Below, in pieces: positions 26,296 to 52,442 of a DNA stretch of 64,000 nucleotides (positions are counted from its first letter, which is position 1; each line of letters starts with the position of its first letter). Under the pieces are notes generated by a model. That model made no database searches, was not told the DNA's origin, and saw nothing but the letters and a program-made list of their open reading frames with translations. Origin of the DNA: Flavihumibacter solisilvae. GTDB lineage: Bacteria > Bacteroidota > Bacteroidia > Chitinophagales > Chitinophagaceae. Location of the stretch: the NCBI RefSeq assembly GCF_000814475.1, contig NZ_JSVC01000007.1:62001-126000 (forward strand), read 5' to 3'. A program made the position numbers and the translations under genes.

Positions 26296-26298
26296 TAT

Positions 26299-27353
26299 AT
26301 GCAATCGTTTACATTAGCTGAACATCCACACAAGAGACTGAATATCCTTACAGGAGAATGGATTCTGGTATCGCCTCACCGGACAAGACGGCCCTGGCAG
26401 GGTAAGGTGGAAAAGCCGGAGCAGGACCAACTACCCGCGTTCGATCATAGCTGTTATTTATGTCCCGGCAACAAACGAGCTGATGGATCAATGAATGAGT
26501 CGTATAGAGGGCCTTACGCTTTTACCAACGATTTTGCTGCATTGGTTCCCGGCACTCCGCAGGGCGAAACGAATATCGGCGGCTTATTAAAGGCAACTGC
26601 CGAAAAGGGTATTTGCAGGGTGATCAGTTTCTCTCCCCGCCATGACCTTACATTGCCACAGCTCGGGATACATGATATTCGGAATGTTGTTGACCTGTGG
26701 TGTGATGAGTTCCACTCATTGGCTGCAGACCCGGATATCCGCTATATCCAGATCTTTGAGAATAAGGGAGCGATTATGGGCCACATCCACACGGACAGAT
26801 CTGGGCTTCTGCGTCTATTCCTGTAGAGATCGAAAAGGAATCGACCCGCCAGCAAATGCATTTTGAAGCCACCGGCAGGACATTACTTGGCGATTACCTG
26901 GATATTGAACTACAAATGAATGAACGGATCGTAACTGCCAATGATCATTTTGTTGCACTGGTTCCGTTTTGGGCCACCTGGCCTTATGAAACGATGATCA
27001 TCAGCCGGAGAGCCGTTCAGTGGATCACGGAATTTACAACGGAAGAAAGGCAGGCTCTTGCGGATATACTTAAAAAGCTTACCTGTAAGTACGATAACCT
27101 GTTCGAAGTTTCATTTCCTTATTCGGCAGGCATTCACCAGGCTCCTGTGAATTGCGGTCATTATGAAGCCTGGCACTGGCATATGCATTTTTATCCACCG
27201 CTTCTGCGTTCTGCATCAATAAAGAAATTTATGGTGGGTTATGAACTACTTGCGAATCCTCAACGCGATATCACAGCGGAATCCGCCGCTGAGAAGCTCC
27301 GAAGTCTCCCTGCTATACATTATACGCAGCAATCAACTGTCATTAACCATTAG
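26299..27353 (+). pseudogene. galT: galT interrupted by a 10-base deletion
   Basis: Galactose-1-phosphate uridylyltransferase transfers UMP from UDP-glucose to galactose-1-phosphate. The first frame (26299-26826) encodes the N-terminal half with the zinc-type [12 protein letters not shown] motif and runs to FENKGAIMG, then leaves the family and stops. The second frame resumes exactly at 26781 with [10 protein letters not shown], including the catalytic HPH (26784-26792), and continues to a normal C-terminus at 27353. Family sequences have G-C-S-N-P-H-P-H-G-Q here, so about 10 bases (the CSN codons plus one base) are missing at 26780/26781. Restoring them gives 354 residues, the normal length. 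The rest is intact, so the lesion is recent or is a sequencing error. Confidence 0.88.
26300..26313. promoter_or_regulatory. LacI-type operator-like sequence at the galT start codon
   Basis: Read on the minus strand, TGTAAACGATTGCA matches the candidate operator before susC (38095-38108) at 13 of 14 positions. It overlaps the galT ATG, so coding constraint or chance is quite possible. Confidence 0.2.
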
Positions 27354-27364
27354 ACCTTGTATCC

Positions 27365-32560: not shown

Positions 32561-32707
32561 GAGCAGTCGTTGTATATCGCAATCTAAAATTTCAGTCGCG
32601 GTAAGCCTATATCATGCAGGCATTAAGAAACATAGTGAATACAAAATGATAAAGAATGGACAAATACTGCCCGCTTGATTGCCTAGATTGCTAACCGATC
32701 GAGCCAT

Positions 32708-34036
32708 ATGCGACTTCAATTGATTATTGCAACAGTTTTCCTGCCACTATTTGCCTTTACGATTCCAGGCAAAGATGACTGGCGTGGAAGAGCCGACGAT
32801 CCAACGATCGTTCATCGCACTATAAAACGAATTACCGATGTGATTGTTTACGATGTATATAGTCCACCCGTCGCCAGCCGTACCTATGCATATATCGCCG
32901 TCGCAGGTTATGAGGCAGCAAGGAATGGCAACAATTCATACCTGAGTCTTTCAGGACAACTCAACCAGTTAACAGGCCTACCGCAACCTGGTAGTGACAG
33001 GCCCTATAGTTTTTCGATAGCTGCCGCACATGCTATGCTCAAAGTAGCGCAGACAATGGTCATTTCTGAAGACAGCATCCTTGTCTTCGACAGGCAGTTG
33101 CAGAAAGAATGGCGATCAATGGGTGTTCCGGAAGCCGTCTTAATCAATTCATTGCAGTACGGTGAAGCCGTGGCTCTTCACATCATAAAATGGGCAGGCG
33201 GTGACATGTACAAGCAGACCAGGTCCTATCCGAAATTTGATGTGGATGAAGAGGCGTCAACCTGGAAGCCCACTGCACCTGCTTACATGAAGGCTGTTGA
33301 GCCTCATTGGAATAAGATCAGGCCATTCCTGATTGATTCAGCCCAGCAGTTCAAACCTGAACCCGCCGTTCATTTCTCAACAGATTCTTCAAGCCAATTT
33401 TTCGCCTTCGCGAAGGAGGTTTACCTGGCAGGGAAGAACCTGAGTTCAGAGCAGGTCGCAATTGCAGATTTCTGGGACTGCAACCCTTTCAGGATGAACG
33501 TCAGCGGCCACGTGATGTTCGCAACTAAAAAAATCTCGCCGGGCGGGCATTGGATCAACATCAATGCTACCGCATGTGAGATTGTGAAAGCCGATATAAT
33601 GCGGTCGCTGGAATCATATGCATGTCTCGCTTTAACAATGGCGGATGCGTTCATTATATGTTGGGACGAGAAATACCGGAGTCGCGTTATACGCCCCGAA
33701 ACCTATATCAACCTGTATATTGAAAAGGACTGGATGCCTATTCTGCAAACACCTCCATTTCCGGAATATACCAGTGGGCATAGTGTAGTTTCAGCAGCGG
33801 CCGCAGTTATTCTCACGAAATTGTTTGGTGAAAGTTTTAAGTACACAGATGACACGGAACAGTCATTCGGATTGCCCGCAAGAAATTTCAATTCTTTCCG
33901 GCAAGCGGCTGAAGAGGCAGCCATCAGCAGGTTGTACGGTGGTATTCATTATATGCCGGCAATTAAGTTTGGATTTAACGCAGGAGAGAAGCTGGGCAAT
34001 CATATCACGCGTAAACTCCGCACAAAAGGTTCCTAA
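32708..34036 (+). CDS. Vanadium-dependent haloperoxidase-like / PAP2-superfamily protein
   Basis: This exported protein of 442 residues has a hydrophobic N-terminus (about residues 1-19). The C-terminal all-helical domain has the three vanadate/phosphate-binding motifs of the superfamily: KxxxxxRP as KYRSRVIRPETY, PEYTSGHS near residue 351, and SRLYGGIHY near 407. The N-terminal helical part and the SPPVASRTYAYIAVAGYEA segment match the Bacteroidota haloperoxidase-related group rather than lipid phosphatases. It could be a haloperoxidase or an acid-phosphatase-like enzyme; the sequence does not decide. It overlaps the convergent response regulator gene at the stop (CTAA). Confidence 0.85.
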   Translation: MRLQLIIATVFLPLFAFTIPGKDDWRGRADDPTIVHRTIKRITDVIVYDVYSPPVASRTYAYIAVAGYEAARNGNNSYLSLSGQLNQLTGLPQPGSDRPYSFSIAAAHAMLKVAQTMVISEDSILVFDRQLQKEWRSMGVPEAVLINSLQYGEAVALHIIKWAGGDMYKQTRSYPKFDVDEEASTWKPTAPAYMKAVEPHWNKIRPFLIDSAQQFKPEPAVHFSTDSSSQFFAFAKEVYLAGKNLSSEQVAIADFWDCNPFRMNVSGHVMFATKKISPGGHWININATACEIVKADIMRSLESYACLALTMADAFIICWDEKYRSRVIRPETYINLYIEKDWMPILQTPPFPEYTSGHSVVSAAAAVILTKLFGESFKYTDDTEQSFGLPARNFNSFRQAAEEAAISRLYGGIHYMPAIKFGFNAGEKLGNHITRKLRTKGS

Positions 34037-34806
34037 TCCTTTCGTTCGTTAGCTTTTTTCTGCATGTAGTCGCTGGGCGTCATTTTAAATTGCTTCAGGA
34101 AATTCCTGGCAAAGTTGCTCTGCGAACTGAATCCAACCATGTTGGATATTTCATAGATCCGGTGCTCTCCTTCTGCAAGATACTCGGCAGCTTTTTTCAG
34201 GCGTGTAATGTTAATGAGTTCGAGCGGTGTAAGATCCGAAACTGCCTTGATTTTCCTGTATAACGTGATCCTGCTCATGGTCATTTTTCTGGCAAGCTTT
34301 TCAACGTCGAGGTCGGCATCTTCGATGTTCCTGCAGATAGCATCGTTCAATTGCTCAAGGAATTTTTCATCAGCTTTCGTATGCGCCATGCTCCTGATAT
34401 GAACAAGGGGTGACTGGGCGAAATATTGCCGGATATTATTCCGGTTGTTCAGGAGACTCGCGATCTGGGCCTGCAGGTGTTCTTTCGAGAAAGGTTTTTC
34501 TATGTAAGCATCCGCACCAAGTTCCAGTCCCTCAATCTTTGACTGGATCGTGTTTTTGGCCGTGAGCAGGATAACGGGGATATGCGAGTACTCAACGTTT
34601 GTTTTGATCTTTTTGCATAACTCAAATCCGTCCATCTCCAGCATCATCACATCGGATACAACAAGCTGGATCGCTTCTGCGGCAAGCTTTACTAATGCTT
34701 CGGCACCGTTATGTGCAGTATGTATCCTGTATTTGGGTTTAAGAATGCGTTCGAGAAATTCCAGGATTTCTTCTTCGTCGTCCACAAGCAGTATATCAGG
34801 CAGCAT
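34033..34806 (-). CDS. Response regulator with AraC-type DNA-binding domain
   Basis: This 257-residue protein has a receiver domain (residues 1-122; acidic pocket D9-D10-E11, phospho-acceptor D52, K104 in IEKPFS) and a C-terminal AraC/XylS double helix-turn-helix (about 150-255; MSRITLYRKIKAVSDLTPLELINITRLKKA, then EISNMVGFSSQSNFARNFLKQF). This is exactly the C-terminal half of a classical hybrid two-component system. It starts 12 bases after the kinase stop, in the same frame, and only a TAA and four codons separate them. It presumably activates the adjacent susC operon. Confidence 0.93.
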   Translation of the reverse strand: MLPDILLVDDEEEILEFLERILKPKYRIHTAHNGAEALVKLAAEAIQLVVSDVMMLEMDGFELCKKIKTNVEYSHIPVILLTAKNTIQSKIEGLELGADAYIEKPFSKEHLQAQIASLLNNRNNIRQYFAQSPLVHIRSMAHTKADEKFLEQLNDAICRNIEDADLDVEKLARKMTMSRITLYRKIKAVSDLTPLELINITRLKKAAEYLAEGEHRIYEISNMVGFSSQSNFARNFLKQFKMTPSDYMQKKANERKD

Positions 34807-34818
34807 ATCGTTTGGATT

Positions 34819-37800
34819 TTATCTTGTTTGTGAAGTGCGTTTTGGTTTTTGGGATATTTCCTTTTCAGGTGGATGAACAGGCAACCGCAGAATAAATAGA
34901 TTCATACCATTTTCGGCTTCACGGAACAATAATTCTCCTCCATGCAGGGTGGCGAGAGATTTTGCAAGGGCCAGGCCGATGCCTGTACCCCTCTGCCTTG
35001 TGGCATCTTTAATCCTGACAAACGGTTCAAATATTTTCTCCCGCATTGCGGCGGGAATCAACGGGCCGTCATTTTCAATAGTTAATGACCAGTACATATC
35101 ATCGCTTCCTGGTGGATTAAGTATTACTGAGACATAATGCGACGCATATTTGGTTGCGTTTCCAAGCAGGTTGCTGAATATTTTTGTCAGCGCTTCTTCG
35201 TCTGCCATTGCTGTAAATCGTTGATCCGGAAGATGGAGAGAATAGTTAAGTTTCTTTTTATCCGCTACCGGTCTGAAGGTAATGTAGGACTCTTCCAGAA
35301 TCGGGGCAATATCTTCTTTTGCGAAATCGAGGCTGAAACCCCTGGTCTCTGTCTTGCGAAAGTCAAGTATCTGTGTGATGAGTGTGACCAGCCTGTTGGT
35401 GTTACGGTTCATCATTGTGACGTCTTCACGGATTTCCGGAATCTCGTCTGTTTTTTCCAGCAGGTTTTCAACTGGTCCTTTTATCAATGTAAGCGGTGTC
35501 CTGATCTCATGTGCCACATTTGTGAAGAAATCGATCTTCGCTTCATAGATCTCTTTTTCTTTTTTCTCCTGCGTCCTTCGGTGGTACCTGCGGATCAGCA
35601 GCCACGCAATTACAGCGACCAGGAGGGCATAGACGATATAGGCTGTTGTTGAAGCCCAGAAAGGCGGAAGAATTTCAATGTATAATTTCTTTTCCTTGCT
35701 GTTCCAGTTTCCATTTGTAAATGCCTTTACACGGAAAACATAGTTACCAGAAGACAGGTTGGTGAAATAAACTTTACGGTTCGTTTTCAGGAAGGTCCAT
35801 TCCTTTTCCAGGCCATCCATCTTATAACTGTATGCTGTTACCTCGGGTGATGTAAAACTAAGCGCAGCGAAATCAATACTAAAGGAAGACTGGTCATAAG
35901 GCAATTTAAGGCTCTTTGTATAAAGTATTGACTGTGGCAGAAAGCCGCTGTCGGCGGAAATACTAAGTTCACGGTTGTGTACCTGGAAGCCGGTGATGAA
36001 AATCTGGGGAACGAAATTGCTGGCGTGAAAGGTGCCTGGCCTGAAACTTACCATTCCCTTGATGCTGCCGAAATAAATATTTCCATCAGCATCCTTATAC
36101 CCTGAGTTGTAGTTGAACTGGTCGTTCAGTAAACCGTTTGCCTTGGTGAAAACCACGATGCTTTTTTGTTCAGGGAGGAAACGTACCAGTCCCTTTGATG
36201 TCGACACCCACAAATAGCCATTATCATCTTCAATGATTTTGAAGATGAAATTACTGGGCAGTCCGTCTTTCGTTGTATAGGTGGTGAAATTATTCTGCTT
36301 TTCGTTGTAACTGCAAAGTCCACCTCCTTCAGTTGCAAACCATAGCCGGTTTTTACTGTCTTCATAAATGGCGTTGACAATGTTGTTTGGGAAACCAAGA
36401 CTATCGCCGGTGGTAAAAGTAAAGTTGGTGAATTTTCTTGTTGAAGGTTCATATCCATAAATGCCCCGGCCATGTGTGCCGATCCAGACGAGACCTTTAC
36501 TGTCCTCCAAGAGGCATGAGATGAATCCTCCGGCCGGAAAGTTGTCAGGGCAGTCAAATTTGGAGCCTGCCGATGTAAAGCGGAACAATCCATTACTGGT
36601 GCCTACATATTTATTTCCTGACCTGGTCTCCAGCAGTGAAACGACAAAATTGCTCTTGAGTTCATGTTCTCCTGAACCAGCCTTGTAACGTCTCACTACT
36701 TTCCTCGTACCGAGGTCCATGATGTCAAGGCCATTTTCAAAAGTTCCGATCCACAGCTCATTACCGCTGACAAGCAAGCCATGGATGTTGGAATGGGAGA
36801 TGCTTCCGGGGCTTGTGCCTGGTTCATAGTGTGTAATTGCACCTGTTCGCTTGTCCAGGCTGTTCAGGCCTGCATCTTCGGTACCAATCCAAAGCACCCC
36901 ATTATGGTCTTCGCAGATCTCCCGGACTGCACTTCCACCCACGGTATTTGAGGAATAGTCTGGGTAATATTTTGTGAAGAAAGTATGTTGTTTCGAAAAG
37001 TAGTTTATTCCGCCAAAATATGTACCGGCCCACACACCTCCTTCAGAATCTTTACTCAAAGTATATACAGCATTGTCGGATAAAGAGTACGGGTCAAGAA
37101 ATTTTTTCCGGAGGTTTGTATAGCCGGCTTTATCGCGGTGCAGAATAAAGATTCCGGATTCAGTTGCCAGCCAATATTCATTCCGGTCATACAATAAAAT
37201 ATCGCGGATAAAAATCGGGGTCCTGTTCGGGTTCTCGGTTAACAGATCCGTATACTGCAATTTAGCTGTATCAAATAGTTTCAGTCCCTGGCCTGAGGTT
37301 CCGATAAGTATGCTGCCATCGTCTGTACACCGCACTTTCTGAATCCATCGCGAAGGTGGCGCGGGGGAATGTGAGAAGAGTTCAAATGCGCTGAAATTAT
37401 TCTGCGACTCATTATACCTGTACAGCTTTCCATCAGTGGAACCGAACCATAGTGTATTGTTGCTTGCCCGGCAAATGGATGTCGCCCTTATCAGGTTCTG
37501 GTAAGATACAAGTTCAGAATTTCCGAAGTCATACCTGTATACCGTATTCCAGGAGATAAACCACAATCTTCCTTTCGCATCATGTAAAACAGTGTTCACC
37601 TCTTTGAGGGAATCAATGAAACTTACCAGCTTTTCCCTCTTTTCATCAAACCGGTAAAGACCCATTGCTGATCCGACCCACAATGCGCCATTCATGTCGG
37701 TGGACAGGCAATAAATCATATCGCTATTTCCGGAGCCCTGGTTATTATCCGCAATTGTGAATTGTTTGAACTGGTAGCCATCAAACCGGTTAAGGCCATT

Positions 37801-37995
37801 CTTCGTTCCAAACCACATAAAACCATTTCTGCCCTGGACGCTGCAAAAAACTGTGTTGTTGGAGAGTCCTTCTTCCACCTGGTAGTGCCGGAAATAATAT
37901 GGTTGTGAAAAAGTCGGGGAGGTTGTAAGAATGATCAATAATAACAGCATCCATACATAAGCGTTAGTGAAACGGATGTTGCCGGATTGAAACAT
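34819..37995 (-). CDS. Two-component propeller sensor histidine kinase (N-terminal part of a split HTCS)
   Basis: This 1,058-residue sensor has a signal peptide or anchor (about residues 1-31), fourteen or so Reg_prop blades forming two seven-bladed propellers (about 35-690, repeated xLWxGTxxGLxxxD), a Y_Y_Y domain (about 700-770), one transmembrane helix (about 783-803), HisKA with the phospho-acceptor in NVAHEIRTPLTLIKGP, and an HATPase domain with NLLGNATKYA and RGTGIGLALAKSL. It would sense a glycan fragment in the periplasm. Unlike a classical HTCS it ends after HATPase, and the receiver and AraC parts lie in the next gene in frame. It is divergent from susC, which it presumably controls. 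Confidence 0.93.
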   Translation of the reverse strand: MFQSGNIRFTNAYVWMLLLLIILTTSPTFSQPYYFRHYQVEEGLSNNTVFCSVQGRNGFMWFGTKNGLNRFDGYQFKQFTIADNNQGSGNSDMIYCLSTDMNGALWVGSAMGLYRFDEKREKLVSFIDSLKEVNTVLHDAKGRLWFISWNTVYRYDFGNSELVSYQNLIRATSICRASNNTLWFGSTDGKLYRYNESQNNFSAFELFSHSPAPPSRWIQKVRCTDDGSILIGTSGQGLKLFDTAKLQYTDLLTENPNRTPIFIRDILLYDRNEYWLATESGIFILHRDKAGYTNLRKKFLDPYSLSDNAVYTLSKDSEGGVWAGTYFGGINYFSKQHTFFTKYYPDYSSNTVGGSAVREICEDHNGVLWIGTEDAGLNSLDKRTGAITHYEPGTSPGSISHSNIHGLLVSGNELWIGTFENGLDIMDLGTRKVVRRYKAGSGEHELKSNFVVSLLETRSGNKYVGTSNGLFRFTSAGSKFDCPDNFPAGGFISCLLEDSKGLVWIGTHGRGIYGYEPSTRKFTNFTFTTGDSLGFPNNIVNAIYEDSKNRLWFATEGGGLCSYNEKQNNFTTYTTKDGLPSNFIFKIIEDDNGYLWVSTSKGLVRFLPEQKSIVVFTKANGLLNDQFNYNSGYKDADGNIYFGSIKGMVSFRPGTFHASNFVPQIFITGFQVHNRELSISADSGFLPQSILYTKSLKLPYDQSSFSIDFAALSFTSPEVTAYSYKMDGLEKEWTFLKTNRKVYFTNLSSGNYVFRVKAFTNGNWNSKEKKLYIEILPPFWASTTAYIVYALLVAVIAWLLIRRYHRRTQEKKEKEIYEAKIDFFTNVAHEIRTPLTLIKGPVENLLEKTDEIPEIREDVTMMNRNTNRLVTLITQILDFRKTETRGFSLDFAKEDIAPILEESYITFRPVADKKKLNYSLHLPDQRFTAMADEEALTKIFSNLLGNATKYASHYVSVILNPPGSDDMYWSLTIENDGPLIPAAMREKIFEPFVRIKDATRQRGTGIGLALAKSLATLHGGELLFREAENGMNLFILRLPVHPPEKEISQKPKRTSQTR

Positions 37996-38138: not shown

Positions 38139-41100
38139 ATGAAATCCTCCAGGAGTTTTCTGTCCGGAGAGGTGCTTCGTGCGCTTCACTATTTCCGGCA
38201 AAAGAAAATCATTCCCACACTTTCATTACTATTATTATTAAGCGGCGCTGCCTTTTCCCAAGCCACTGAAAAGACCAACATTGCGGGCTTTGTCCGTGAT
38301 AGTGCCGGGGCAGCCCTTCCACAGGTCACAGTTACAGAAAAAGGCACATCTAATGCCACAAAAACTGATGACAACGGTCGCTTTGCTATTACTGTGGCAG
38401 GCGAAAAATCAGTGCTCGTATTTAGTTCCGTAGGTTACACTGCCACCGAGGTACGGGTGGGAAAAAAATCCACACTTGACATAACGCTTGACCTGGCTAA
38501 CAAAGGGTTGGGCGAGGTGATCGTGGTAGGATATGGCACCAAAACCAAACAATCGATTACCGGCGCAGTTTCCTCGGTTACTGCAAAAGATATCGATCGC
38601 GTACACGCGGGAGCTACCGTTAGTTCCGCGCTTGCCGGAAAACTACCGGGCGTTACATTCAGAATGCCTGACGGCCGACCTGGTTCCTCTGCGAACATCC
38701 AGATCAGGAACATGGGTACTCCGCTTTATGTAATCGATGGCATTCAGCAGGATGAGGGTCAGTTCAATAACCTCGCGCCAAATGATATTGAGAGCATAAC
38801 CATTTTAAAAGACGCATCTGCGGCTATTTATGGTGTACGGGCTGCAAACGGTGTTGTAGTGGTGACTACCAAAAAAGGTACAACCGGAAGAAACAACGTA
38901 AATGTTGACGCATATATGGGATGGCAGAACTGGTTCCGCTTTCCCCAGGTGACGAACAACTCCTATGATTATATGCGCTATAAAGCTGAAGCGCAGATCA
39001 ATCGTGACGGGTCAACTCCAATAACTCCTGAAGAACTTGAGAAATTCAGGCAGGGTGAAGCAGCAGGACCTGAATACCGGTCGTTTGACTGGCGCGATTA
39101 TGTGATGCAGAAAAACTCGCTGCAGAACTCCATCAATGTAAACATTAATGGAGGATCAGATAAAGTGAACTATTACGTTTCCGCCACCAACTTCTACCAG
39201 AACTCAGTACTGGGGCGTGAGTATAAATTCAACCGTTCGAATATCCAGTCGAACGTTACCGCTAAAGTAAACAACCGGATGAGAGTTGGTATGCAGGTGA
39301 ACGGTCGCATTGAAACAAGGCAGAATCCTGGTGTGCCGGGACTTGACGATTACTGGCTGTCAAGGTTTGCTATTCTGCGCAACACGCCTGTTGAACGTCC
39401 TTATGCAAATGACAATCCGCAATACCTCAATGACCTCGGTGAGCACCTTGAATCAAATTATGCGTTCCTGAATGAGAAAATCTCAGGTAAGTATAAAGAA
39501 GACTGGAGGGTGCTGCAGACTAATTTCAACCTTGAATACCAGGTTCCGGGCATCGACGGACTGACATTGAAAGGTGTGTATTCCTATTATATCGCAGATA
39601 AACTCCTGAACAACCAGGAATACACTTATGATGCTTATACCTATCATAAAGATACCGATACATATGAGCGTACAGGCGGTGCGACAAACCCATGGCGCGA
39701 AAGAGAGCAGATCAAACAGGAGAACACCAACTTCCAGGGACAGGTAAACTACAGCCGCACGTTTGGTGAACATGCAATAGGTGCAACATTTGTTGCAGAA
39801 AGGATTAAGAACAAGCGGATTCGCAACTGGATTCACTCTTCACCTATTTCCAATAATCTACCGCTTGTGTATTTCCCGACAATGGACCAATACCAGGACA
39901 GCGAGGAAGAACAGGCGAGGACCGGTTATATCGGGCGTGTCACCTACGCTTTTGCAAATAAATATTTCTTCGAAGCATCTGCAAGACGTGATGCATCTTA
40001 CCTCTTCGCCCCGGAGAACCGTGTGGGTTATTTCCCCGGGGTATCAGCAGGATGGCGCATTACCGAGGAAGCTTTCATGAGAAATCTTCTCGGCGCGAGC
40101 GATGTCCTGAATGACCTGAAGATCAGGGCATCTTATGGTGAACTTGGCGATGATCGTTCTGCTACTGATCCTAACCAGCCGATTGTTGCTCCTTATGCTT
40201 ACCTGCCTGGTTACAATTACAACCAGGGTACTGCAATCCTCGGCGGTAACGCTGTAACTGTATCCAGGGACAAAGGAATTCCAATCACCAGGATCACGTG
40301 GATGACGAGCCGCACACTTGACCTCGGTCTTGACTTCGCAATGCTGCGTAACAGGCTGACAGGTACTGTCGATTATTTCAAACGTAAAAGAGAAGGGCTG
40401 CTTGGTACGAAAAACGATGTGATCGTGCCGATCGAAGTTGGCTATAATCTTCCCCCGGAAAACGTAAACAGTGACCAGCAGGAGGGTGTGGAACTTTCAT
40501 TGAACTGGACTGACAAAGTGGGGCAGTTCAGGTACAATGTGGGCGGTAACATTTCGTATTCAAGAGGAAAGACACTGGATTCATACAATCCGCTTTTCTT
40601 CAACTCATGGGACGAATACCGCAACTCAACAGAAAATCGGTTCAGGTATATTGAATGGGGTTACATCACAGACGGACAATTCAAGTCGCAGGAAGAGATC
40701 AATAACTATCCGGTAAATATAGACGGTAAAGGAAATACCACACTATTGCCCGGTGACCTCAAATACAGGGATATCAATGGTGACCAGAAGATCGATGGTT
40801 ATGACCAGCGCCCAATCGGTTTCGGCTATGGCCGCCAGCCGAATGTGAACTTTGGCTTTACGTTGGGTCTCTCATACAGGAACATTGATTTCCACGCCGA
40901 CTTCTCCGGAGCGTCTGGTTATACCTGGTTCCAGAACTGGGAAACAAGATGGGCCTTCCAGAACAACGGGAACCTGAATACTATTTTTGAAGACAGGTGG
41001 CATCGCACAGACATGTATGATCCCAACAGCGAATGGGTTGCAGGGAAGTACCCGGCTAACCGCTACAACATGGGAACAGGTCACAGTAACTACGGCACCA

Positions 41101-41348
41101 ATTCAACATTCTGGCTGCACAACATAACATACCTCCGTGCACGTACTATCGAACTTGGTTATTCACTTCCGGCTTCATTATTGAGTAGGGTGAAAATCCA
41201 GCGCGCACGCTTCTATATCAATACTTATAACCTGTTCTCGATTGATAACATGAAAGAATTTGGCCTGGATCCTGAAGTGATTGATGACAATGGTCTTCAG
41301 TTCCCTCAAAACAAAGTGCTGAATTTCGGAATGAACCTGAGCTTCTAA
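38139..41348 (+). CDS. susC: SusC/RagA-family TonB-dependent outer-membrane transporter
   Basis: This 1,069-residue outer-membrane receptor imports oligosaccharides together with SusD, using energy from TonB. After a signal sequence (to about residue 41, AAFSQ) comes a CarboxypepD_reg-like domain (about 46-120, IAGFVRDSAGAALPQVTV), the GEVIVVGYGTKTKQSITGAV segment that marks SusC proteins, a plug domain with IRNMGTPLYVIDGI and ILKDASAAIYGVRAANGVVVVTT, and a long C-terminal beta barrel ending in LNFGMNLSF with a terminal Phe. It is first in a nine-gene plus-strand operon and is preceded by the candidate LacI operator. The symbol marks the family, not starch specificity. Confidence 0.97.
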   Translation: MKSSRSFLSGEVLRALHYFRQKKIIPTLSLLLLLSGAAFSQATEKTNIAGFVRDSAGAALPQVTVTEKGTSNATKTDDNGRFAITVAGEKSVLVFSSVGYTATEVRVGKKSTLDITLDLANKGLGEVIVVGYGTKTKQSITGAVSSVTAKDIDRVHAGATVSSALAGKLPGVTFRMPDGRPGSSANIQIRNMGTPLYVIDGIQQDEGQFNNLAPNDIESITILKDASAAIYGVRAANGVVVVTTKKGTTGRNNVNVDAYMGWQNWFRFPQVTNNSYDYMRYKAEAQINRDGSTPITPEELEKFRQGEAAGPEYRSFDWRDYVMQKNSLQNSINVNINGGSDKVNYYVSATNFYQNSVLGREYKFNRSNIQSNVTAKVNNRMRVGMQVNGRIETRQNPGVPGLDDYWLSRFAILRNTPVERPYANDNPQYLNDLGEHLESNYAFLNEKISGKYKEDWRVLQTNFNLEYQVPGIDGLTLKGVYSYYIADKLLNNQEYTYDAYTYHKDTDTYERTGGATNPWREREQIKQENTNFQGQVNYSRTFGEHAIGATFVAERIKNKRIRNWIHSSPISNNLPLVYFPTMDQYQDSEEEQARTGYIGRVTYAFANKYFFEASARRDASYLFAPENRVGYFPGVSAGWRITEEAFMRNLLGASDVLNDLKIRASYGELGDDRSATDPNQPIVAPYAYLPGYNYNQGTAILGGNAVTVSRDKGIPITRITWMTSRTLDLGLDFAMLRNRLTGTVDYFKRKREGLLGTKNDVIVPIEVGYNLPPENVNSDQQEGVELSLNWTDKVGQFRYNVGGNISYSRGKTLDSYNPLFFNSWDEYRNSTENRFRYIEWGYITDGQFKSQEEINNYPVNIDGKGNTTLLPGDLKYRDINGDQKIDGYDQRPIGFGYGRQPNVNFGFTLGLSYRNIDFHADFSGASGYTWFQNWETRWAFQNNGNLNTIFEDRWHRTDMYDPNSEWVAGKYPANRYNMGTGHSNYGTNSTFWLHNITYLRARTIELGYSLPASLLSRVKIQRARFYINTYNLFSIDNMKEFGLDPEVIDDNGLQFPQNKVLNFGMNLSF

Positions 41349-41377: not shown

Positions 41378-43219
41378 ATGAAAAAGATTATTTCTTTATC
41401 CATTATATCAGCGGTTATTTCACTGTCCGGTTGTAAAAAAGACAGTGAGTTCCTGGATATTCCTCCGATCCAGGTCATACCAACCGAAACAGCATTTTCC
41501 GATCCCGCGCTCGTATTGAGTATATTAGGCGACCTTTATAACCGGCAGGTAGATTTCTCATCACTTGATAATGGCTGGCGCAGCTTTGCAGACTTCAGCG
41601 AAAGTTTCCCTTCCGAGAACGGGAGCAGCTTCATTGTCGAAAGAACCGGATGGGGATACGGTGAATGGGGCACATGGGATTATGCTTACATCCGCGATCT
41701 GAACCTCTTCCTTCAAAGGATGGGAGCAACCACAAAACTGAAGGATATAGACAAAGTACGTTTTACTGCAGAAGGCCGTTTCCTTCGTGCCAATTACTAT
41801 TTTGAAATGGCGAAGAGAATGGGTGGAGTACCACTTATTCTCGAACCAATGGAGTATGACTACAAAGAAGATGTTACCAACCTGCAGGTGCCGAGGGCTA
41901 AAGAATCAGAAGTATATGACTTTGTGATCAGTGAAGCAGAAGCAATTAAAGACCAATTGCCTGCAGATCTCAATGACAGGTCAAGGGCTACAAAAGCTGC
42001 AGCGCTTGCCATGCAGGCCAGGGCGGCTCTTTATGCCGGGTCAATCGCGAAATACGGGGCAACAACTCCATCGGTTTCCTTACCGGGTGGCGAGGTAGGT
42101 ATTCCTGCTGCAAATGCTGAAGGTTATTACAACAAGGCACTTGCCGCTGCACAACAGATCATCAATGGTACGGCTGGCCCGGTATCCCTGTATAAGGTGT
42201 TACCCAACCTGTCAGAGAACTTCGCTGCCATTTTTCTTGATAAAAGTTCGGTAAACCAGGAGGCGATTTTCATTGAGGATTTCAGGGCATTCGCCGGCAA
42301 GGTTCACGGGTTCACTACTAACGATCAGCCATATTCGATTTCAGACGAAGGTGGTGACGCAGGAAGGCTTAATCCCTCACTCAACCTGGTAGAGTCTTTC
42401 GAAATGCTCGATGGTACATTTGCGCCACTTCCAACAACCGATGGTGCAGGTAATCCCATCTACTACGACAACCAGGAAGACATATTCGCAGGTCGGGATG
42501 CAAGGCTTGCCGGAAGCGTACTGATTCCTAATGGCGTATTTAAGGGTAAGCGTGTCGATATCAAAGCGGGTACTATCACTCCGGCAGGAGTGACCGGAGG
42601 AACAGCAGGACTTGATGGTCCGGTGAATGGTCTTGAATTCCGGACACAAACAGGTTTCTACATTCGCAAATGGCTTGATCCGACAATCGGTTCCGGTCGT
42701 CGTGGTCGCGGAAGTGATGTGGCGTTTATTCGCTACCGCTTCGCAGAAGTGCTGCTCAATGCAGCAGAAGCTGCATTTGAACTGGGACAAACTGCACTTG
42801 CCGCTGACTACCTTAACCTGGTTCGTTCCAGGGCAGGATTTACGACAGCTTTGGCTGCAGGTGATGTTACATTCGACCGTATAGTTCACGAGCGCAGGGT
42901 AGAACTCGCGTTTGAAGGTCATATCCTGTTCGACTACAAACGCTGGCGGATTGCGCACCAGGTATGGACTGGCGACCCCACCACACTTGCAGACCTGAAA
43001 AGTAATATAGGTCTTGCTACAAAGAAAAGCACGCAGCCCTGGGGACTCTGGCCTTACCAGGTAACCGGTGGCCTGAACGATGGCAAGTGGATCTTTAAAG
43101 AAGTCCTGCCCAGCAGGGTTTCGGGGTCAAACAGGTTCCAGCTTGGTAACTACTATTCGGAGATAGGCGCCAATATTCGTGCCGCCAACCCGAAAATTGT
43201 AAGACAGCCAAACCAGTAA
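41378..43219 (+). CDS. susD: SusD/RagB-family nutrient-binding lipoprotein
   Basis: This 613-residue surface lipoprotein caps the SusC barrel and binds the glycan. The lipobox LSGC gives Cys19 followed by KKDSE. The TPR-like helical scaffold is clear: RFLRANYYFEMAKRMGGVPLI near residue 145, TKAAALAMQARAALYAGS, and the C-terminal RYRFAEVLLNAAEAAFELG and DRIVHERRVELAFEGHILFDYKRWR motif shared by the family. It starts 29 bases after susC. It is slightly longer than average for SusD proteins, and the ligand is not predictable from sequence. Confidence 0.96.
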   Translation: MKKIISLSIISAVISLSGCKKDSEFLDIPPIQVIPTETAFSDPALVLSILGDLYNRQVDFSSLDNGWRSFADFSESFPSENGSSFIVERTGWGYGEWGTWDYAYIRDLNLFLQRMGATTKLKDIDKVRFTAEGRFLRANYYFEMAKRMGGVPLILEPMEYDYKEDVTNLQVPRAKESEVYDFVISEAEAIKDQLPADLNDRSRATKAAALAMQARAALYAGSIAKYGATTPSVSLPGGEVGIPAANAEGYYNKALAAAQQIINGTAGPVSLYKVLPNLSENFAAIFLDKSSVNQEAIFIEDFRAFAGKVHGFTTNDQPYSISDEGGDAGRLNPSLNLVESFEMLDGTFAPLPTTDGAGNPIYYDNQEDIFAGRDARLAGSVLIPNGVFKGKRVDIKAGTITPAGVTGGTAGLDGPVNGLEFRTQTGFYIRKWLDPTIGSGRRGRGSDVAFIRYRFAEVLLNAAEAAFELGQTALAADYLNLVRSRAGFTTALAAGDVTFDRIVHERRVELAFEGHILFDYKRWRIAHQVWTGDPTTLADLKSNIGLATKKSTQPWGLWPYQVTGGLNDGKWIFKEVLPSRVSGSNRFQLGNYYSEIGANIRAANPKIVRQPNQ

Positions 43220-43243
43220 GTGATCACAATCAAAACGACTATC

Positions 43244-43954
43244 ATGAAATTCAAACTGCTTTATATTTTACCGATTACCTTAATTGCATTGATGACTTCT
43301 TGCAAAAAGGACAACTATGATGAACCTACGTCAAAGCTATCCGGACGTATTGTGTACCAGGGCCAGTCATTAGGTTTTGAGAATTCACAGGTGCCCTACG
43401 AACTGTACCAATTCGGATTTGGTAAAGTGGGGCCAATAGGAGCGTCATTTGCACAGGACGGATCTTATTCCACTTTGCTTTTCGATGGGCAATACAAACT
43501 CATCATCCCAAATGGACAGGGACCTTTCCTGTGGCCGAAAACAGCATCAGGTGCGCCTGATACCTTGTTGATCAATTTGAAAGGCAATACCCAGCTTGAC
43601 ATTGAAGTAACTCCATATTACATGATCAGGAATGCAACTTACAGCGCCTCGGGAAATGCAGTTACAGCGAACTTTGGTGTTGAAAAAATTGTAACTGATC
43701 CGGCGATGGCCCGGGATATTGAACGCGTTGCACTCTTTATTAATAAAACACAATTCGTATCTTCTGCCGGGGTAAACCGTATTGCCGATGCGGGAATCAA
43801 TGGCAGTGCAATTGCCGATCCAAGCCAGATCAGCCTGTCAGTAAATATCCCGTCGATTACCCCGACGCAGAACTACGTATTTGCGCGTGTTGGCGTGAAA
43901 GTGGCGGGCGTTGAAGACTGGCTTTACGGTCCTCTTGAAAAACTTACCTACTAA
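43244..43954 (+). CDS. DUF3823-domain lipoprotein
   Basis: This 236-residue protein has a lipoprotein signal (MKFKLLYILPITLIALMTSC, Cys20, then KKD). It has an N-terminal DUF3823 domain with a carboxypeptidase-regulatory-like sandwich (LSGRIVYQGQSLGFENS, then FAQDGSYSTLLFDGQYKLIIPNGQGPFLWP) and a C-terminal beta-rich domain. DUF3823 proteins commonly follow SusC/SusD and are thought to be surface glycan-binding proteins (SGBP-like), which fits the position here. The ATG at 43244 gives a proper signal peptide; a GTG at 43220 is in frame right after the susD stop. Confidence 0.88.
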   Translation: MKFKLLYILPITLIALMTSCKKDNYDEPTSKLSGRIVYQGQSLGFENSQVPYELYQFGFGKVGPIGASFAQDGSYSTLLFDGQYKLIIPNGQGPFLWPKTASGAPDTLLINLKGNTQLDIEVTPYYMIRNATYSASGNAVTANFGVEKIVTDPAMARDIERVALFINKTQFVSSAGVNRIADAGINGSAIADPSQISLSVNIPSITPTQNYVFARVGVKVAGVEDWLYGPLEKLTY

Positions 43955-43956
43955 TA

Positions 43957-45819
43957 ATGAAGATGAAGATGAAGAAGATTATTTGCGCTTCGTTTGCCTT
44001 AATGATGGGCACGATGACCTTTGCACAAAATGAATGGAAGATCGCAGGAAATAAGATCCAGTCGCCGTGGGCGGAAAAAGTCGATCCTTCCAAGCCGCTG
44101 CCTGAATATCCACGGCCGCAGATGGTCAGGGATAACTGGATGAACCTGAATGGCAGCTGGAAGTATAGCATCCTGCCGAAGAGTGTGACCACAGCGCCTT
44201 CAGCTTATGAAGGCAATATCCTGGTTCCATTCGCCGTGGAATCAGCACTCTCCGGTGTGGGTAGAACAGTTGGGAAGGACAGTCTTCTCTGGTATGAAAG
44301 GAAGTTTACCCTTCCCAAGGGTTTTTCCGGTAAAACTGTACTACTGCATTTTGGTGCTGTGGACTGGCAGTGTGAAGTGTACCTGAATGGAAAGAATGTA
44401 GGTTCACACCAGGGAGGTTACGATCCGTTCTCCCTGGATATATCTTCTGCCCTGAATAAAAAAGGTGAACAGACCATCACTGTAAGTGTCTGGGATCCCT
44501 CAGACGACGGTCCGCAACCACGCGGCAAGCAGGTAAAGAAACCGGAAGGCATCTGGTACACACCAGTAACCGGTATCTGGCAGACGGTTTGGGTGGAAGC
44601 CGTACCCAAAACCTATGTTAATGGATTCAGGCAAACCCCGGATCTCGACAATTCAACGCTCCAGGTTAACGCCGAAATTCAGCAGCTTCAACCTGGTGAC
44701 CAGGTAGTAGTGACTGCATATAAAGGCGCAAGCAAAGTCGCAGAACAGGTAACAGACGCTTCAGGTGCTGCTACACTCATTATCCCGGATGTACAGAAAT
44801 GGTCTCCGCAACACCCGTTCCTGTATGACCTCAAACTTTCGGTTATGCGTAAGGGAAAGGTTGTTGATGAAGTGAAGAGTTACTTTGCCATGCGCAAGAT
44901 TTCGATGGCGCCGGATAAAAATGGAATCCAGCGCATGTTGTTGAACAATGAGTTTGTATTCCAGTATGGACCACTTGACCAGGGATGGTGGCCTGATGGT
45001 TTATACACTGCGCCTACCGACGAAGCGCTGCTTTTTGATATTGAGAAAACCCGTGACATGGGATTTAATATGATCCGCAAGCATGTTAAGGTTGAGCCGG
45101 CAAGATGGTATTACCATTGCGACAAACTTGGTCTGCTTGTTTGGCAGGATATGCCAAGCGGTGACCTCGGCAACCGTTGGGAGTCCAGGCCTGGAATATA
45201 TGGCAGGGCAACAGATAAAAACCGCGACGCTGCCTCTGAAGAAATCTTCCGCACAGAATGGAAAGAGATCATGCAGGACCTGCATAATTTTCCCAGCATA
45301 GTTGTTTGGGTGCCGTTTAATGAAGCATGGGGACAATTTAAAACCAGGGAAATAGTAGAGTGGACTATGAAAATGGATCCTTCCCGACTGGTAAACACTG
45401 CGAGTGGGGGCAACTTCGAAAGCGTGGGCCACATCATCGACCTCCACAATTATCCCGAACCGCTGATGCCGGATCCACAATTGTTCGGTAAAGACAGGGT
45501 CCTTGTTCTTGGTGAATTTGGCGGCCTGGGCCTTCCGCTGGAAAACCATACCTGGCAACAAACGAAAAACTGGGGGTACCAGAGCTTCAAAAATAGAACT
45601 GAACTCTATGACCGTTATAAAGAGTTTATTTCGCGGTTCCCTCGCCTGATCGAAAAAGGACTGTCTGCAGCGGTGTATACACAAACAACCGATGTCGAAG
45701 TGGAAACGAATGGACTCATGACCTACGATCGTAAGGAAATCAAAATCCCGGTTGCGGATCTTAAAGTTTTACACGATGGAATTTACAACAGTCCTTCCGC
45801 TAAAGTGGCTTTAAAATGA
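43957..45819 (+). CDS. GH2-family glycoside hydrolase
   Basis: This exported 620-residue enzyme has a short signal peptide (about residues 1-22, MTFAQ). It has the GH2 layout: a sugar-binding jelly roll (about 40-210, WMNLNGSWKY and LLHFGAVDWQCEVYLNG), an Ig-like domain (about 215-310) and a TIM barrel with the acid/base E456 in WVPFNEAWGQ and the nucleophile E520 in LGEFGGLG. GH2 includes beta-galactosidases, beta-glucuronidases and beta-mannosidases; this compact type is found in many plant-glycan loci, and its specificity is open. It starts two bases after the DUF3823 gene and overlaps the GH127 gene by 4 bases. Confidence 0.93.
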   Translation: MKMKMKKIICASFALMMGTMTFAQNEWKIAGNKIQSPWAEKVDPSKPLPEYPRPQMVRDNWMNLNGSWKYSILPKSVTTAPSAYEGNILVPFAVESALSGVGRTVGKDSLLWYERKFTLPKGFSGKTVLLHFGAVDWQCEVYLNGKNVGSHQGGYDPFSLDISSALNKKGEQTITVSVWDPSDDGPQPRGKQVKKPEGIWYTPVTGIWQTVWVEAVPKTYVNGFRQTPDLDNSTLQVNAEIQQLQPGDQVVVTAYKGASKVAEQVTDASGAATLIIPDVQKWSPQHPFLYDLKLSVMRKGKVVDEVKSYFAMRKISMAPDKNGIQRMLLNNEFVFQYGPLDQGWWPDGLYTAPTDEALLFDIEKTRDMGFNMIRKHVKVEPARWYYHCDKLGLLVWQDMPSGDLGNRWESRPGIYGRATDKNRDAASEEIFRTEWKEIMQDLHNFPSIVVWVPFNEAWGQFKTREIVEWTMKMDPSRLVNTASGGNFESVGHIIDLHNYPEPLMPDPQLFGKDRVLVLGEFGGLGLPLENHTWQQTKNWGYQSFKNRTELYDRYKEFISRFPRLIEKGLSAAVYTQTTDVEVETNGLMTYDRKEIKIPVADLKVLHDGIYNSPSAKVALK

Positions 45820-47870
45820 TCCGAATGGAAACAAGGACATTATTAGTGATGGCAGGCATTATTGCCTGCCTTCATTCTGCACATGGTCAGAAGATAGAGG
45901 CAACTATTGTAGAAACAACAGTTAATAACAAAGCGAACAGTTATTATACCGGTAATCGCGCACCACTTTCCAGGGAATATTTCACGAGGCTTCCGGTAAC
46001 TACTTTTGAGCCTGGCGGGTGGTTGAGGAAGCAACTTGAACTTCAGCGCGAAGGGCTGACCGGGCACCTCGGTGAAATCAGTATCTGGCTTTCGAAAAAT
46101 GACAACGCCTGGTTGAATAAGGAAGGACAGGGTAAATGGGGCTGGGAAGAATTGCCATACTGGTTAAAAGGGTATGCAGAGATCGGTTACCTGCTTAACG
46201 ATAAGAAAATGATCGGCGAGGCAAAATTCTGGATCAGCAATGTTATCCGTAACCAGCGCCAGGATGGCGATTTCGGCCCTAAAGTACTGCGAAATGGCAA
46301 GCGCGATCTATGGACGAACATGCCTATGCTCTGGTGCCTGCAGTCATATTACGAATTCAGCGGCGACAAGAAAGTATTGTCTTTTATGTCACGCTATTTC
46401 AAATGGCAGTTGGGTGTCCCCGATGACCAGTTCCTCGAAGATTACTGGGAGAACAGCAGGGGAGGAGACAACATGCTCAGTGTATATTGGTTGTATAGCC
46501 GGACAGGCGAAAATTTCCTTCTTGACCTGGCCACAAAGATCGACAGGAACACGGCCAACTGGCGGCAACAGAACACTCTTCCCAACTGGCATAACGTGAA
46601 CATTGCGCAGTGCTTCCGCGAGCCCGCCACCTATTACCTGCAAAGCCATAAAAAGGCTGACCTTGAAGCCACTTATAACAATCACCGCCTGATAAGGGAA
46701 ATCTATGGCCAGGTACCGGGAGGCATGTGGGGAGGTGATGAAAACTCGAGAAAAGGGCATGACGACCCGCGGCAGGCTGTGGAAACATGCGGTATGGTAG
46801 AGCAGATGACTTCTGACCAGTTCCTTATAAGGTTCACAGGCGATGCCGGGTGGGCCGACAACTGTGAAGATGTTGCTTTCAATACATTCCCTGCCGCATT
46901 TATGCCTGACTATCGGTCTCTTCGTTACCTGACTGCACCCAATATGGTGGTAAGTGATGCAAAGAATCATGCTCCTGGTATCCAGAATGAAGGTCCATTC
47001 CTTATGATGAATCCATTCAGTAGTCGTTGCTGCCAGCATAACCATTCGGCAGGCTGGGCATATTATGCAGGAAATGCATGGATGGCCACACCAGACAACG
47101 GACTCGCATTCCAGTTGTATACAAAGGGAAAACTGAAAGCAACAGTTGGCAATGGAGAAACAGTTCAGGTGATAACAGAAACCAATTACCCGTTTGAAGA
47201 AAGCATAGAAATGAAAATTGTTACTTCTTCGCAGGTGCAGTTTCCCCTTTACCTCCGCATTCCGGAATGGTGCGATCAGCCTTCTGTTTCACTGAATGGA
47301 AGGAAGATCCCTTTGTCAAAATCGGAAGGAAAATATATCGCACTTAACGGTAGTTGGAAGAATGGCGACAAACTGAGACTCGACCTTCCAATGAAGATAA
47401 AGGTCAGGCAATGGGTGAAGAATAAAAACAGTGTAAGTGTTAACTATGGCCCGTTGACCTTTTCTTTAAAAATAGACGAGCAGTATGTGCAGAAGGATAG
47501 CAGGGAAACTGCTATTGGCGACTCGAAATGGCAGGCAAATGCAAATGCAGAAAAGTGGCCATCCTATGAGATTTATGCCGCATCTCCATGGAATTATGGA
47601 TTATTTCTTGAAAAGTATGACGCCATTCACTCATTTACGATCAAAAGAAAAGAATGGCCAAAAGATGATAACCCCTTTGTAAATAGCGCAGCACCCATCG
47701 AAATTTCTGTTAAAGGAAAAGTTATTCCGTCGTGGAAGATTGACCAGTATGGTTTGTGCGCCGAACTGCCGAAGAGTCCGGTTACCACGGAAGCGCCTGA
47801 AACGACCCTTACACTGGTACCCATGGGAGGCGCTCGCCTGAGAATTTCAGCATTCCCGGTAGTTGAATAA
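45816..47870 (+). CDS. GH127-family beta-L-arabinofuranosidase-like protein
   Basis: This 684-residue exported protein of the GH127/DUF1680 family has a signal peptide (about residues 1-24, AHGQ) and an (alpha/alpha)6 barrel followed by beta-sandwich domains. The zinc-thiolate catalytic set known from HypBA1 is present: E323 and C325 in AVETCGMVEQ, and C405-C406 in SRCCQHNHSAGW, one of which is the nucleophilic Cys. GH127 enzymes remove beta-L-arabinofuranose, for example from extensin-type or arabinan side chains. This is the best substrate clue in the locus. An alternative ATG lies three codons in. Confidence 0.93.
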   Translation: MIRMETRTLLVMAGIIACLHSAHGQKIEATIVETTVNNKANSYYTGNRAPLSREYFTRLPVTTFEPGGWLRKQLELQREGLTGHLGEISIWLSKNDNAWLNKEGQGKWGWEELPYWLKGYAEIGYLLNDKKMIGEAKFWISNVIRNQRQDGDFGPKVLRNGKRDLWTNMPMLWCLQSYYEFSGDKKVLSFMSRYFKWQLGVPDDQFLEDYWENSRGGDNMLSVYWLYSRTGENFLLDLATKIDRNTANWRQQNTLPNWHNVNIAQCFREPATYYLQSHKKADLEATYNNHRLIREIYGQVPGGMWGGDENSRKGHDDPRQAVETCGMVEQMTSDQFLIRFTGDAGWADNCEDVAFNTFPAAFMPDYRSLRYLTAPNMVVSDAKNHAPGIQNEGPFLMMNPFSSRCCQHNHSAGWAYYAGNAWMATPDNGLAFQLYTKGKLKATVGNGETVQVITETNYPFEESIEMKIVTSSQVQFPLYLRIPEWCDQPSVSLNGRKIPLSKSEGKYIALNGSWKNGDKLRLDLPMKIKVRQWVKNKNSVSVNYGPLTFSLKIDEQYVQKDSRETAIGDSKWQANANAEKWPSYEIYAASPWNYGLFLEKYDAIHSFTIKRKEWPKDDNPFVNSAAPIEISVKGKVIPSWKIDQYGLCAELPKSPVTTEAPETTLTLVPMGGARLRISAFPVVE

Positions 47871-47906
47871 TCGGCTAAAAAAGAATAAGGAAGTTAAAAG
47901 GAACAT

Positions 47907-48944
47907 ATGAGAAGATGGTTCTTACCGATAATCGTATGCCTCTTACTGGCAGGTACAGCTGAAGCGCAGCATTCAAAAACATTCACCAATCCACTGTTGC
48001 CAGCTGGTGCTGATCCGTTCAGCTTTTATAAGGATGGGTACTATTATTACACCCATACTATGGGGAACAGGATTGTGTTGTGGAAAACGAAGAATCTTGC
48101 GGATTTGAAAACAGCCGAACAGAAAACAATATATACGCCACCTCCGGACACTTACTATTCAAAAGAGCTGTGGGCGCCTGAAATCCATTTCCTGCAAGGA
48201 AAATGGTATGCCTATTTTGCTGCTGACAATGGCCGGAACCAGAATCACCGGATGTATGTACTGGAGAACGCTTCTCCTGACCCAATGAGCGGTGAATGGA
48301 TCTTTAAGGGAAAAGTTGCAGATCCTTCAGACAAATGGGCAATCGATGGCGATGTGTTCGAATACAACAACCAGCTTTACATGATCTGGTCAGGCTGGGA
48401 AGCTGACGTAAATGGCCAGCAGGATATTTATATCGCCAGGATGAAAAACCCATGGACCATCGAAGGCAAACGGGTTCGGATCAGCGTACCCACTTTCGAT
48501 TGGGAGACTCATGGAGATTTGAACAGCAAGGATGATCCGCCGCATGTAAATGTAAATGAGGGTCCCCAGATATTGCAACACGGCAAGGATCTATTCATAA
48601 TCTTTTCTGCAAGTGGTTGCTGGACTGATTTTTACGCGCTGGGCCTTTTGCGGTTCGCCGGAGGTAAAAATCTTCTCGATCCGTCAGCATGGAAAAAACA
48701 TCCGCAGCCTGTGTTTAGCGGGTCAAAGGAAAACAAAGTATTTGCGACAGGACATAATTCATTCTTTAAATCACCCGATGGTAAGCAGGATTGGATCCTT
48801 TACCATGCCAATTCGAACCCGGCTGAAGGTTGTGGAAGAAAACGTTCGCCCCGCGCACAACCTTTCAACTGGAACAATGACGGCACTCCGAATTTTGGTA
48901 AACCCGTCAAAGAAGGTGTTGAAATTGCTATTCCCTCAGAATAA
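47907..48944 (+). CDS. GH43-family arabinosidase/xylosidase-type hydrolase
   Basis: This exported five-bladed propeller enzyme has 345 residues and a signal peptide (about residues 1-20, AEAQ). The three catalytic acids are D36 in AGADPFSFYKDGYYYY, D147 in AIDGDVFEYNNQLYMIW and E218 in VNEGPQILQHGKDLFII. Together with the GH127 gene upstream it points to arabinofuranose removal, but GH43 also includes xylosidases and galactosidases. It lies 36 bases after the GH127 gene and 16 bases before the DUF4965 gene, within one operon. The WDWETHGDLNSKDDPP-like insertion before the Glu is seen in the arabinofuranosidase-like subgroup (inference). Confidence 0.93.
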   Translation: MRRWFLPIIVCLLLAGTAEAQHSKTFTNPLLPAGADPFSFYKDGYYYYTHTMGNRIVLWKTKNLADLKTAEQKTIYTPPPDTYYSKELWAPEIHFLQGKWYAYFAADNGRNQNHRMYVLENASPDPMSGEWIFKGKVADPSDKWAIDGDVFEYNNQLYMIWSGWEADVNGQQDIYIARMKNPWTIEGKRVRISVPTFDWETHGDLNSKDDPPHVNVNEGPQILQHGKDLFIIFSASGCWTDFYALGLLRFAGGKNLLDPSAWKKHPQPVFSGSKENKVFATGHNSFFKSPDGKQDWILYHANSNPAEGCGRKRSPRAQPFNWNNDGTPNFGKPVKEGVEIAIPSE

Positions 48945-48960
48945 ACTTAAAAGAAAATTT

Positions 48961-51399: not shown

Positions 51400-52442
51400 G
51401 GAACGAGATCGAAAAGATCACCATCTCTGATATTGCGCGGGAACTGAATATTACAGCCGCAACAGTTTCCCGTGCACTGAATGATCACCCCGGAATCAGG
51501 GATTCCACGAAACGGGCCGTGAAGGAAACGGCACGGAAGCTCAACTATCAGCCGAACAAGATCGCGTCTTCGCTCCGGCTGGGACGGTCGAAGATCATCG
51601 GGGTGATCATTCCCAGTGCAGAGATCAATTTCTTTGGCTCGGTAGTTCATGGCATCGAAAAGGTTGCCAACGAGAATAATTACAGCGTACTGATCTACCA
51701 GTCAAACGAACATATTGAATTTGAGAAGAAGGGGGTCAAGACATTCCTTCAGTCGAGGGTGGATGGCGTCCTTGCTTCCATTTCGAAGGAGACGATCAAT
51801 CTTGATCACTATCGTGAAATAATTAACCGTGGGGTACCGCTTGTATTGTTCGATCGGGGAAATGACCAGCTGGGCGTCAGCTCAGTGCTGGTGGATGATT
51901 ATGCAGGTGCATTTGAAGCGACCCGGCATCTCATTATGCAGGGGTGCAAACGCATTGCACATATTGGCGGCCAGCAGCACGTTGGTATTTTTAACCAGCG
52001 GCTAAAAGGCTATGTTGATGCCTTGAATGTACATGGCATCGGCGTGGATGATGACCTTATACTTTACGGAAAAGTAAGTATTGACTCCGGTCGCGATTGC
52101 ATGCAGCATTTGCTTTCCATATCATCGAGGCCCGATGCTGTTTTTGCGGTTGAAGATTTTACAGCTGTAGGCGCCATCCAGGCCATGAAGGCTGCGAATA
52201 TCCGGATCCCGGAGGATATAGCGATCGTGGGATTTGCAAATGAAACGTTCGGGGAATTTATCACGCCTTCCCTTTCTACGGTTAACCAGCAAACTACAGT
52301 AATGGGAGAATCTGCTGCCCGGATTTTTTTCGAAGCCATGAAGACAAATGCTTATTATAAAGATGGTCCGCGGAAACTTATTCTCGAACCGAAACTCATC
52401 GTGCGGCAGTCGAGTATGAAAATAAAAAAGGGCATTCTCTGA
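51396..52442 (+). CDS. LacI-family transcriptional regulator
   Basis: This 348-residue regulator has an N-terminal LacI helix-turn-helix (about residues 7-60: TISDIARELNITAATVSRALNDHPGI, then hinge helix NKIASSLRLGRS) and a periplasmic-binding-protein-like sensor domain (about 64-335: IGVIIPSAEINFFGSVVHGIE, VDGVLASIS, VLVDDYAGAFEATRHLIMQGC). It overlaps the DUF4965 gene by 4 bases, so it belongs to the utilisation operon and probably responds to a released monosaccharide or its metabolite. The candidate operator before susC fits this class. Its 3' end lies inside the hairpin that terminates the opposite gene. Confidence 0.95.
   Translation: MRNEIEKITISDIARELNITAATVSRALNDHPGIRDSTKRAVKETARKLNYQPNKIASSLRLGRSKIIGVIIPSAEINFFGSVVHGIEKVANENNYSVLIYQSNEHIEFEKKGVKTFLQSRVDGVLASISKETINLDHYREIINRGVPLVLFDRGNDQLGVSSVLVDDYAGAFEATRHLIMQGCKRIAHIGGQQHVGIFNQRLKGYVDALNVHGIGVDDDLILYGKVSIDSGRDCMQHLLSISSRPDAVFAVEDFTAVGAIQAMKAANIRIPEDIAIVGFANETFGEFITPSLSTVNQQTTVMGESAARIFFEAMKTNAYYKDGPRKLILEPKLIVRQSSMKIKKGIL

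Follow-up and report, generated by a model that had tools for sequence, protein, structure and literature searches.

In the 64,000-nucleotide stretch of Flavihumibacter solisilvae DNA analysed here (the window), the genes for a sensor histidine kinase and an AraC-type response regulator lie on the same strand and in the same frame, separated by one stop codon and a few further codons. The earlier note on this DNA took the pair for a hybrid two-component system (HTCS) that had been split by that stop. The locus thus raises the question of whether the stop codon interrupts a formerly fused protein or is the normal boundary between two genes.

The kinase, the regulator and their junction

The pair consists of the following features:

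34819..37995, minus strand: sensor histidine kinase, 1058 aa (ORF list, Pfam)
34807..34821, minus strand: junction, made up of TAA (34821-34819) and a 12-nt spacer (sequence, relatives)
34033..34806, minus strand: response regulator, receiver plus AraC-type, 257 aa (ORF list, Pfam)

The coordinates, the 12-nt spacer and the shared frame described in the earlier note were confirmed from the ORFs and the junction sequence, which reads ...CAA ACA AGA TAA AAT CCA AAC GAT ATG. It holds a single in-frame stop, and the regulator's ATG at 34806 lies 12 nt further on in the frame of the kinase. The kinase carries the Pfam domains Reg_prop (6.9e-50), Y_Y_Y, HisKA and HATPase_c, and besides these a hydrophobic stretch presumed to be a membrane helix; its phospho-acceptor His, N-box Asn and G-box Gly are all in place. 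In the regulator, Pfam recognizes Response_reg and HTH_18, and the SHIP-DK contact residues are present. At its other end, the regulator gene (34033-34806, minus strand) meets a PAP2-family gene (32708-34036, plus strand) tail to tail, the two stop codons overlapping by 4 nt (34033-34036).

Layout of the pair in relatives

Searches with the regulator covered the genome it comes from, 59 relatives and 394 genomes of its family. A relative at an E-value up to 1e-65 was found in 106 of the 394 same-family genomes and 36 of the 101 genera. Within its own genome, the sole other near-full-length match (residues 4-248) shows 40% identity and lies inside a 1357-codon frame. We fetched 100 loci, deliberately including long-frame rows together with a choice of short-frame rows; their shares, 69 split, 25 fused and 6 without a same-strand upstream kinase within 1.5 kb, are not frequencies.

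The 20 loci with the best E-values fetched (L074-L093; a row in G320 that tied with the last was left out) have 69-80% regulator identity, and all 20 are split. Their kinase genes end in TAA, TAG or TGA, the spacer to the regulator's first residue measures 1-35 nt, and frames 0, 1 and 2 occur 5, 7 and 8 times. The comparison with close HTCS relatives, proposed in the earlier note to see whether they are fused, thus returned two-gene layouts throughout. Relatives with uniformly separate genes and longer spacers were named there as the pattern that would speak against a split HTCS; the close relatives are indeed uniformly unfused, but their spacers are equally short.

Frames are distributed 17/26/27 over the 70 split pairs that include the window (chi-square p=0.27). 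In-frame pairs (17/70) are near the chance expectation for a short-spaced pair, 1 in 3, and the other 53 are out of frame. A second set, the 80 best named loci, which partially overlaps the first, contains 57 split loci (frames 16/26/15), 17 fused ones and 6 without an upstream kinase. Neither the 70 pairs (17 in frame) nor the named set (16/57), which share some genomes, showed a bias in frame that would point to selection for keeping fusion possible. The fused rows of the named set stand at 62-64% identity, with none closer, and fused relatives in the same clade at 57-65% regulator identity. By family, the named set comprises 41 split loci, 1 fused locus and 3 without an adjacent kinase in Chitinophagaceae, 6 split and 14 fused loci in Sphingobacteriaceae, and 15 rows from other or unassigned families. 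One contig labelled Williamsia (Nocardiaceae; L187) bears a divergent SusC with this kinase/regulator pair and is probably mislabelled or a mixed bin. By comparison with these relatives, the two-gene layout is old in the lineage, the stop in the window a plain gene boundary, and the shared frame of kinase and regulator a coincidence.

Of the members from the same genus, L074 and L075 have the highest identity; they too have TAA and the same frame, with 9-nt spacers as compared with 12 nt in the window. Because the same stop and frame recur in both, the window's TAA is unlikely to be a sequencing error. Gln-Thr-X precedes the stop in all three, the spacer codons are not alike, and the anchors in kinase and regulator are 27 codons apart in each, as compared with 12 to 56 across all split rows. 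L074 carries a further in-frame TGA within its spacer, and therefore readthrough of one stop would not join the two proteins there. The arrangement of this trio, in frame at 27 codons, counts against an accidental frame, as a frame-keeping constraint would also produce it. This point is answered by the extra TGA in L074 and by the wider clade, which does not keep the frame.

In some relatives the regulator stands apart from the kinase. L152 and L162 have the two genes tail to tail, about 2.35 kb separates an upstream kinase from the regulator in L154 and L156, and no kinase match was found within the stretch fetched for L131 and L169. In Paraflavisolibacter caeni (L175, 78% regulator identity) the regulator (5001-5771) adjoins a divergent SusC of 58% identity, with a kinase match of 53% starting about 2.3 kb downstream of the regulator. 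Further regulator orthologs without a kinase just upstream (71-73% identity) are located as follows:

5001 in L184: Sediminibacterium magnilacihabitans (73%), with PAP2 and FG-GAP relatives downstream of the regulator
5001 in L192 and L195, 4939 in L196: Arcicella bins (71-72%), with a partial SusC match (41-44%) adjoining the regulator

A kinase match is absent from the fetched loci of all four. In several relatives, then, the regulator survives as a gene of its own. Relatives in which the two genes do not stay paired are as close to the window as split ones. An FG-GAP/UnbV-type protein, sometimes with PAP2, recurs near the regulator (29030-34036 in the window; L184, L192, L195, L196, L074 and L075).

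Relation to hybrid systems and history of the clade

The sensor of an HTCS is of the propeller/Y_Y_Y kind. Counted across both genes, the window pair has the HTCS domain order (Reg_prop/Y_Y_Y, HisKA, HATPase, receiver, AraC HTH) and lacks the single polypeptide. The pair would work like an HTCS, but because this defining feature is missing it is not classed as one. It has the properties of a classical two-component pair, namely separate adjacent genes with intact phospho-acceptor residues: the HisKA His, N-box Asn and receiver Asp are present in 70/70 split pairs, and at the position of the receiver Lys 61 pairs have K and 9 have R. We regard the pair, with a probability of roughly 0.9, as a two-component system of the ordinary two-gene kind that corresponds, in split form, to the Bacteroidota HTCS. 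This reading draws on the anatomy, the conserved phospho-acceptor residues, the two-gene layout of the relatives and the synteny observed here. The earlier note was right to see two separate proteins here, with homology to fused hybrid systems. Its 'two-protein phosphorelay' holds for the two proteins and not for the phosphorelay, the parts fitting a kinase that hands over to its regulator in one step.

The clade's fused members (L094-L117 and L165; Mucilaginibacter rows such as L225 and L232) have the window's domain order in one frame, and 15 of the 17 named fused loci have a divergent SusC, as does the window. Unlike the window, they consist of a single frame of 1,321-1,372 codons (L165, at 922, is cut by the contig end), and the 25 in-clade fused rows have an acidic linker of 25-36 codons (median 34; net charge -11 to -4, and -7 to -3 over the first 18 residues). 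Outgroup fused linkers span 25-57 codons (median 41) with a charge of -11 to +4, 5/17 being at 0 or above. The kinase tails of split pairs have a median of 10 residues and a charge of -5 to +7; that of the window, with 18 aa and +3, is unlike the linkers of its fused clade relatives.

A possible effect of tethering on kinase-regulator specificity was looked for at six positions of receiver alpha-1, which we take to be the equivalents of those in OmpR. Split pairs diverge more there than fused ones at matched background divergence (0.486 vs 0.296 in the 0.30-0.35 bin), but no weight was given to the difference, as the fused outgroup has the ratio of the split rows (1.39 vs 1.38, with 0.89 in the fused clade) and the fused rows are essentially one clade. 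Fusions and fissions are reportedly the subject of work by Cock and Whitworth from 2007. A description of this split family was not found in the literature searched by title and start of abstract, which is no proof of absence.

The Bacteroides HTCSs BT4124, BT1754, BT3334 and BT4663 share with the window the order of kinase, receiver and AraC-type domains, the SHIP-DK residues and the adjacency to SusC/SusD that is common for such regulators (PMC11253607). They are one polypeptide, whereas the window has two, with a regulator untethered from the membrane kinase. The same work proposes that the S/CHIP-DK residues of Bacteroides HTCSs hold the DNA-binding domain inhibited despite tethering (PMC11253607). 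With D and K chosen by inference from the 39-residue spacing given there, the full motif is found in 58/70 split rows, 21/25 in-clade fused rows, 5/6 rows without an adjacent kinase and 3/17 outgroup rows. The motif is thus kept without tethering and is rarer in the fused outgroup used. Classical kinase/response-regulator operon pairs are likewise adjacent same-strand genes, and 22.6% of same-strand intervals are reported to be <0 bp (PMC3018481); 8/70 split pairs overlap by our spacer measure. The window regulator differs from the classical pairs, which are of OmpR or NarL type, in combining a receiver with AraC in the manner of an HTCS.

Fused and split members could go back to a single ancient fission, in which a fused HTCS gave rise once to the split clade and left the in-clade fused members as its unsplit sisters. 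This history is compatible with the two-gene reading, not a rival to it for function, and we hold it to be nearly an even bet. All 17 outgroup rows used are fused, and split monophyly is not rejected with 66 rows (p-AU 0.58, lnL 3.5 better than the free tree) or with 76 (p-AU 0.40, lnL 6.8 worse). However, the free trees want 2 (66 rows) and 4 (76 rows) changes, the starred branches with 76 rows force at least 2, and a single change is obtained in 0% of 200 bootstrap trees (2% with 66 rows). Moreover, the outgroup consists of loci returned by the search and may not be uniformly fused, since short-frame matches at 35-39% identity (e.g. G022, G035 and G002) were left out, which leaves the ancestral state and the direction of change insecure. 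Relative to the 66-row tree, 17 named rows were brought into the 76-row tree and others left out; neither run reached a stable bootstrap, and long branches lead to the outgroup. A quick 118-row tree places 24 of the 25 in-clade fused rows in one group (SH-aLRT 99) among split rows, with L110 apart. On these trees a fission in the distant past is plausible, and there may have been more than one event, in either direction.

Re-fusion as a firm claim was dropped, as split monophyly is not rejected. As a tentative proposal, at odds somewhat below even, the clade may have switched repeatedly between the fused and the split state, with fissions and re-fusions in Chitinophagaceae, Sphingobacteriaceae and others, often keeping its SusC neighbour and mostly the SHIP-DK motif. 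The fused ancestor supposed in the earlier note is plausible at depth, given the in-clade fused members and the fused outgroup rows, but the window's TAA is not supported as the place of the cut.

A recent split, in which a point mutation creating this TAA cut the lineage's fused HTCS, would fit the same frame, the short spacer and the fused relatives within the clade. We nevertheless consider it highly improbable, as the 20 top fetched relatives are all split with differing stops, spacers and frames, the same-genus L074 and L075 are already split, and the 9-row group that holds the window consists entirely of split rows (100/100 support, 76-row tree). The linkers provide indirect evidence: a one-stop cut of an acidic in-clade linker of 25-36 codons would be expected to stay acidic, as compared with the 18-aa, +3 tail of the window. 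Tails can change after a split, however, and charge alone is a weak argument because the outgroup linkers are less uniform (-11 to +4). Similarly improbable is readthrough of the TAA into a mixture of free and kinase-fused regulator, despite the single in-frame stop of the window, as L074 has two such stops, the spacer codons vary among the window, L074 and L075, 53 of the 70 split pairs could not be fused in this way, and TAA followed by A is not known to be a leaky context. Both proposals of the earlier note were rejected on the layouts, frames and linkers of the relatives.

The glycan locus and the meaning of the pair

The following genes lie divergent from the kinase:

38139..41348, plus strand: SusC-like TonB-dependent receptor, divergent from the kinase (Pfam)
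41378..43219, plus strand: SusD-like lipoprotein (Pfam)
43220..52442, plus strand: DUF3823, GH2, GH127, GH43, glutaminase A-like and LacI regulator genes, presumed to be the rest of the glycan locus (domain search)

The pair adjoins SusC/SusD, as HTCSs often do, and probably controls the locus, the SusC/SusD operon being the presumed target of the regulator. A divergent SusC of 59-75% identity is found in 16 of the 20 top fetched relatives. As the match is weak in 2 of them and was not found in 2, the link of the pair to this locus is not universal. The family names GH127 and GH43 suggest a glycan that contains arabinose. Sugar genes stand on both sides of the pair (25060-29029 and 43220-52442), with a galactokinase-like gene (25060-26295) and an SSF transporter (27365-29029) on one side and GH2, GH127 and GH43 on the other, which suggests an extensive region for glycans of the arabinose/galactose type. 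With its listed GTG start, the glutaminase A-like ORF (48613-51399) overlaps GH43 (47907-48944) by 332 nt, while Pfam finds no match before residue 130; translation probably starts further downstream.

Most likely, the pair is a normal two-protein system controlling an arabinose-type glycan locus. Both genes would probably be carried on one mRNA, with the regulator translated by re-initiation or ordinary initiation 12 nt past the kinase stop. The membrane kinase would sense a periplasmic glycan fragment via its propeller and Y_Y_Y domains and autophosphorylate on the HisKA histidine. The phosphate would then pass to the aspartate of the separate, soluble receiver-AraC regulator, and the phosphorylated regulator would activate the divergent SusC/SusD operon.

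The junction is real but ordinary, belonging to an old two-gene arrangement of a known type of regulator in which the shared frame is accidental. This removes the supposed oddity and gives the window a normal reading as the regulator of a glycan locus. The wider clade may prove more useful, as it contains one sensor-regulator in both states, often with the same SusC neighbour, and the contact residues proposed to keep the DNA-binding domain inactive in tethered HTCSs remain in 58/70 untethered ones, which bears on the purpose of the contact. If the clade did move between the two forms more than once, it would be a natural experiment on the effect of tethering a regulator to its kinase, and could show whether the inhibitory REC-DBD contact, kept without a tether, exists due to tethering.
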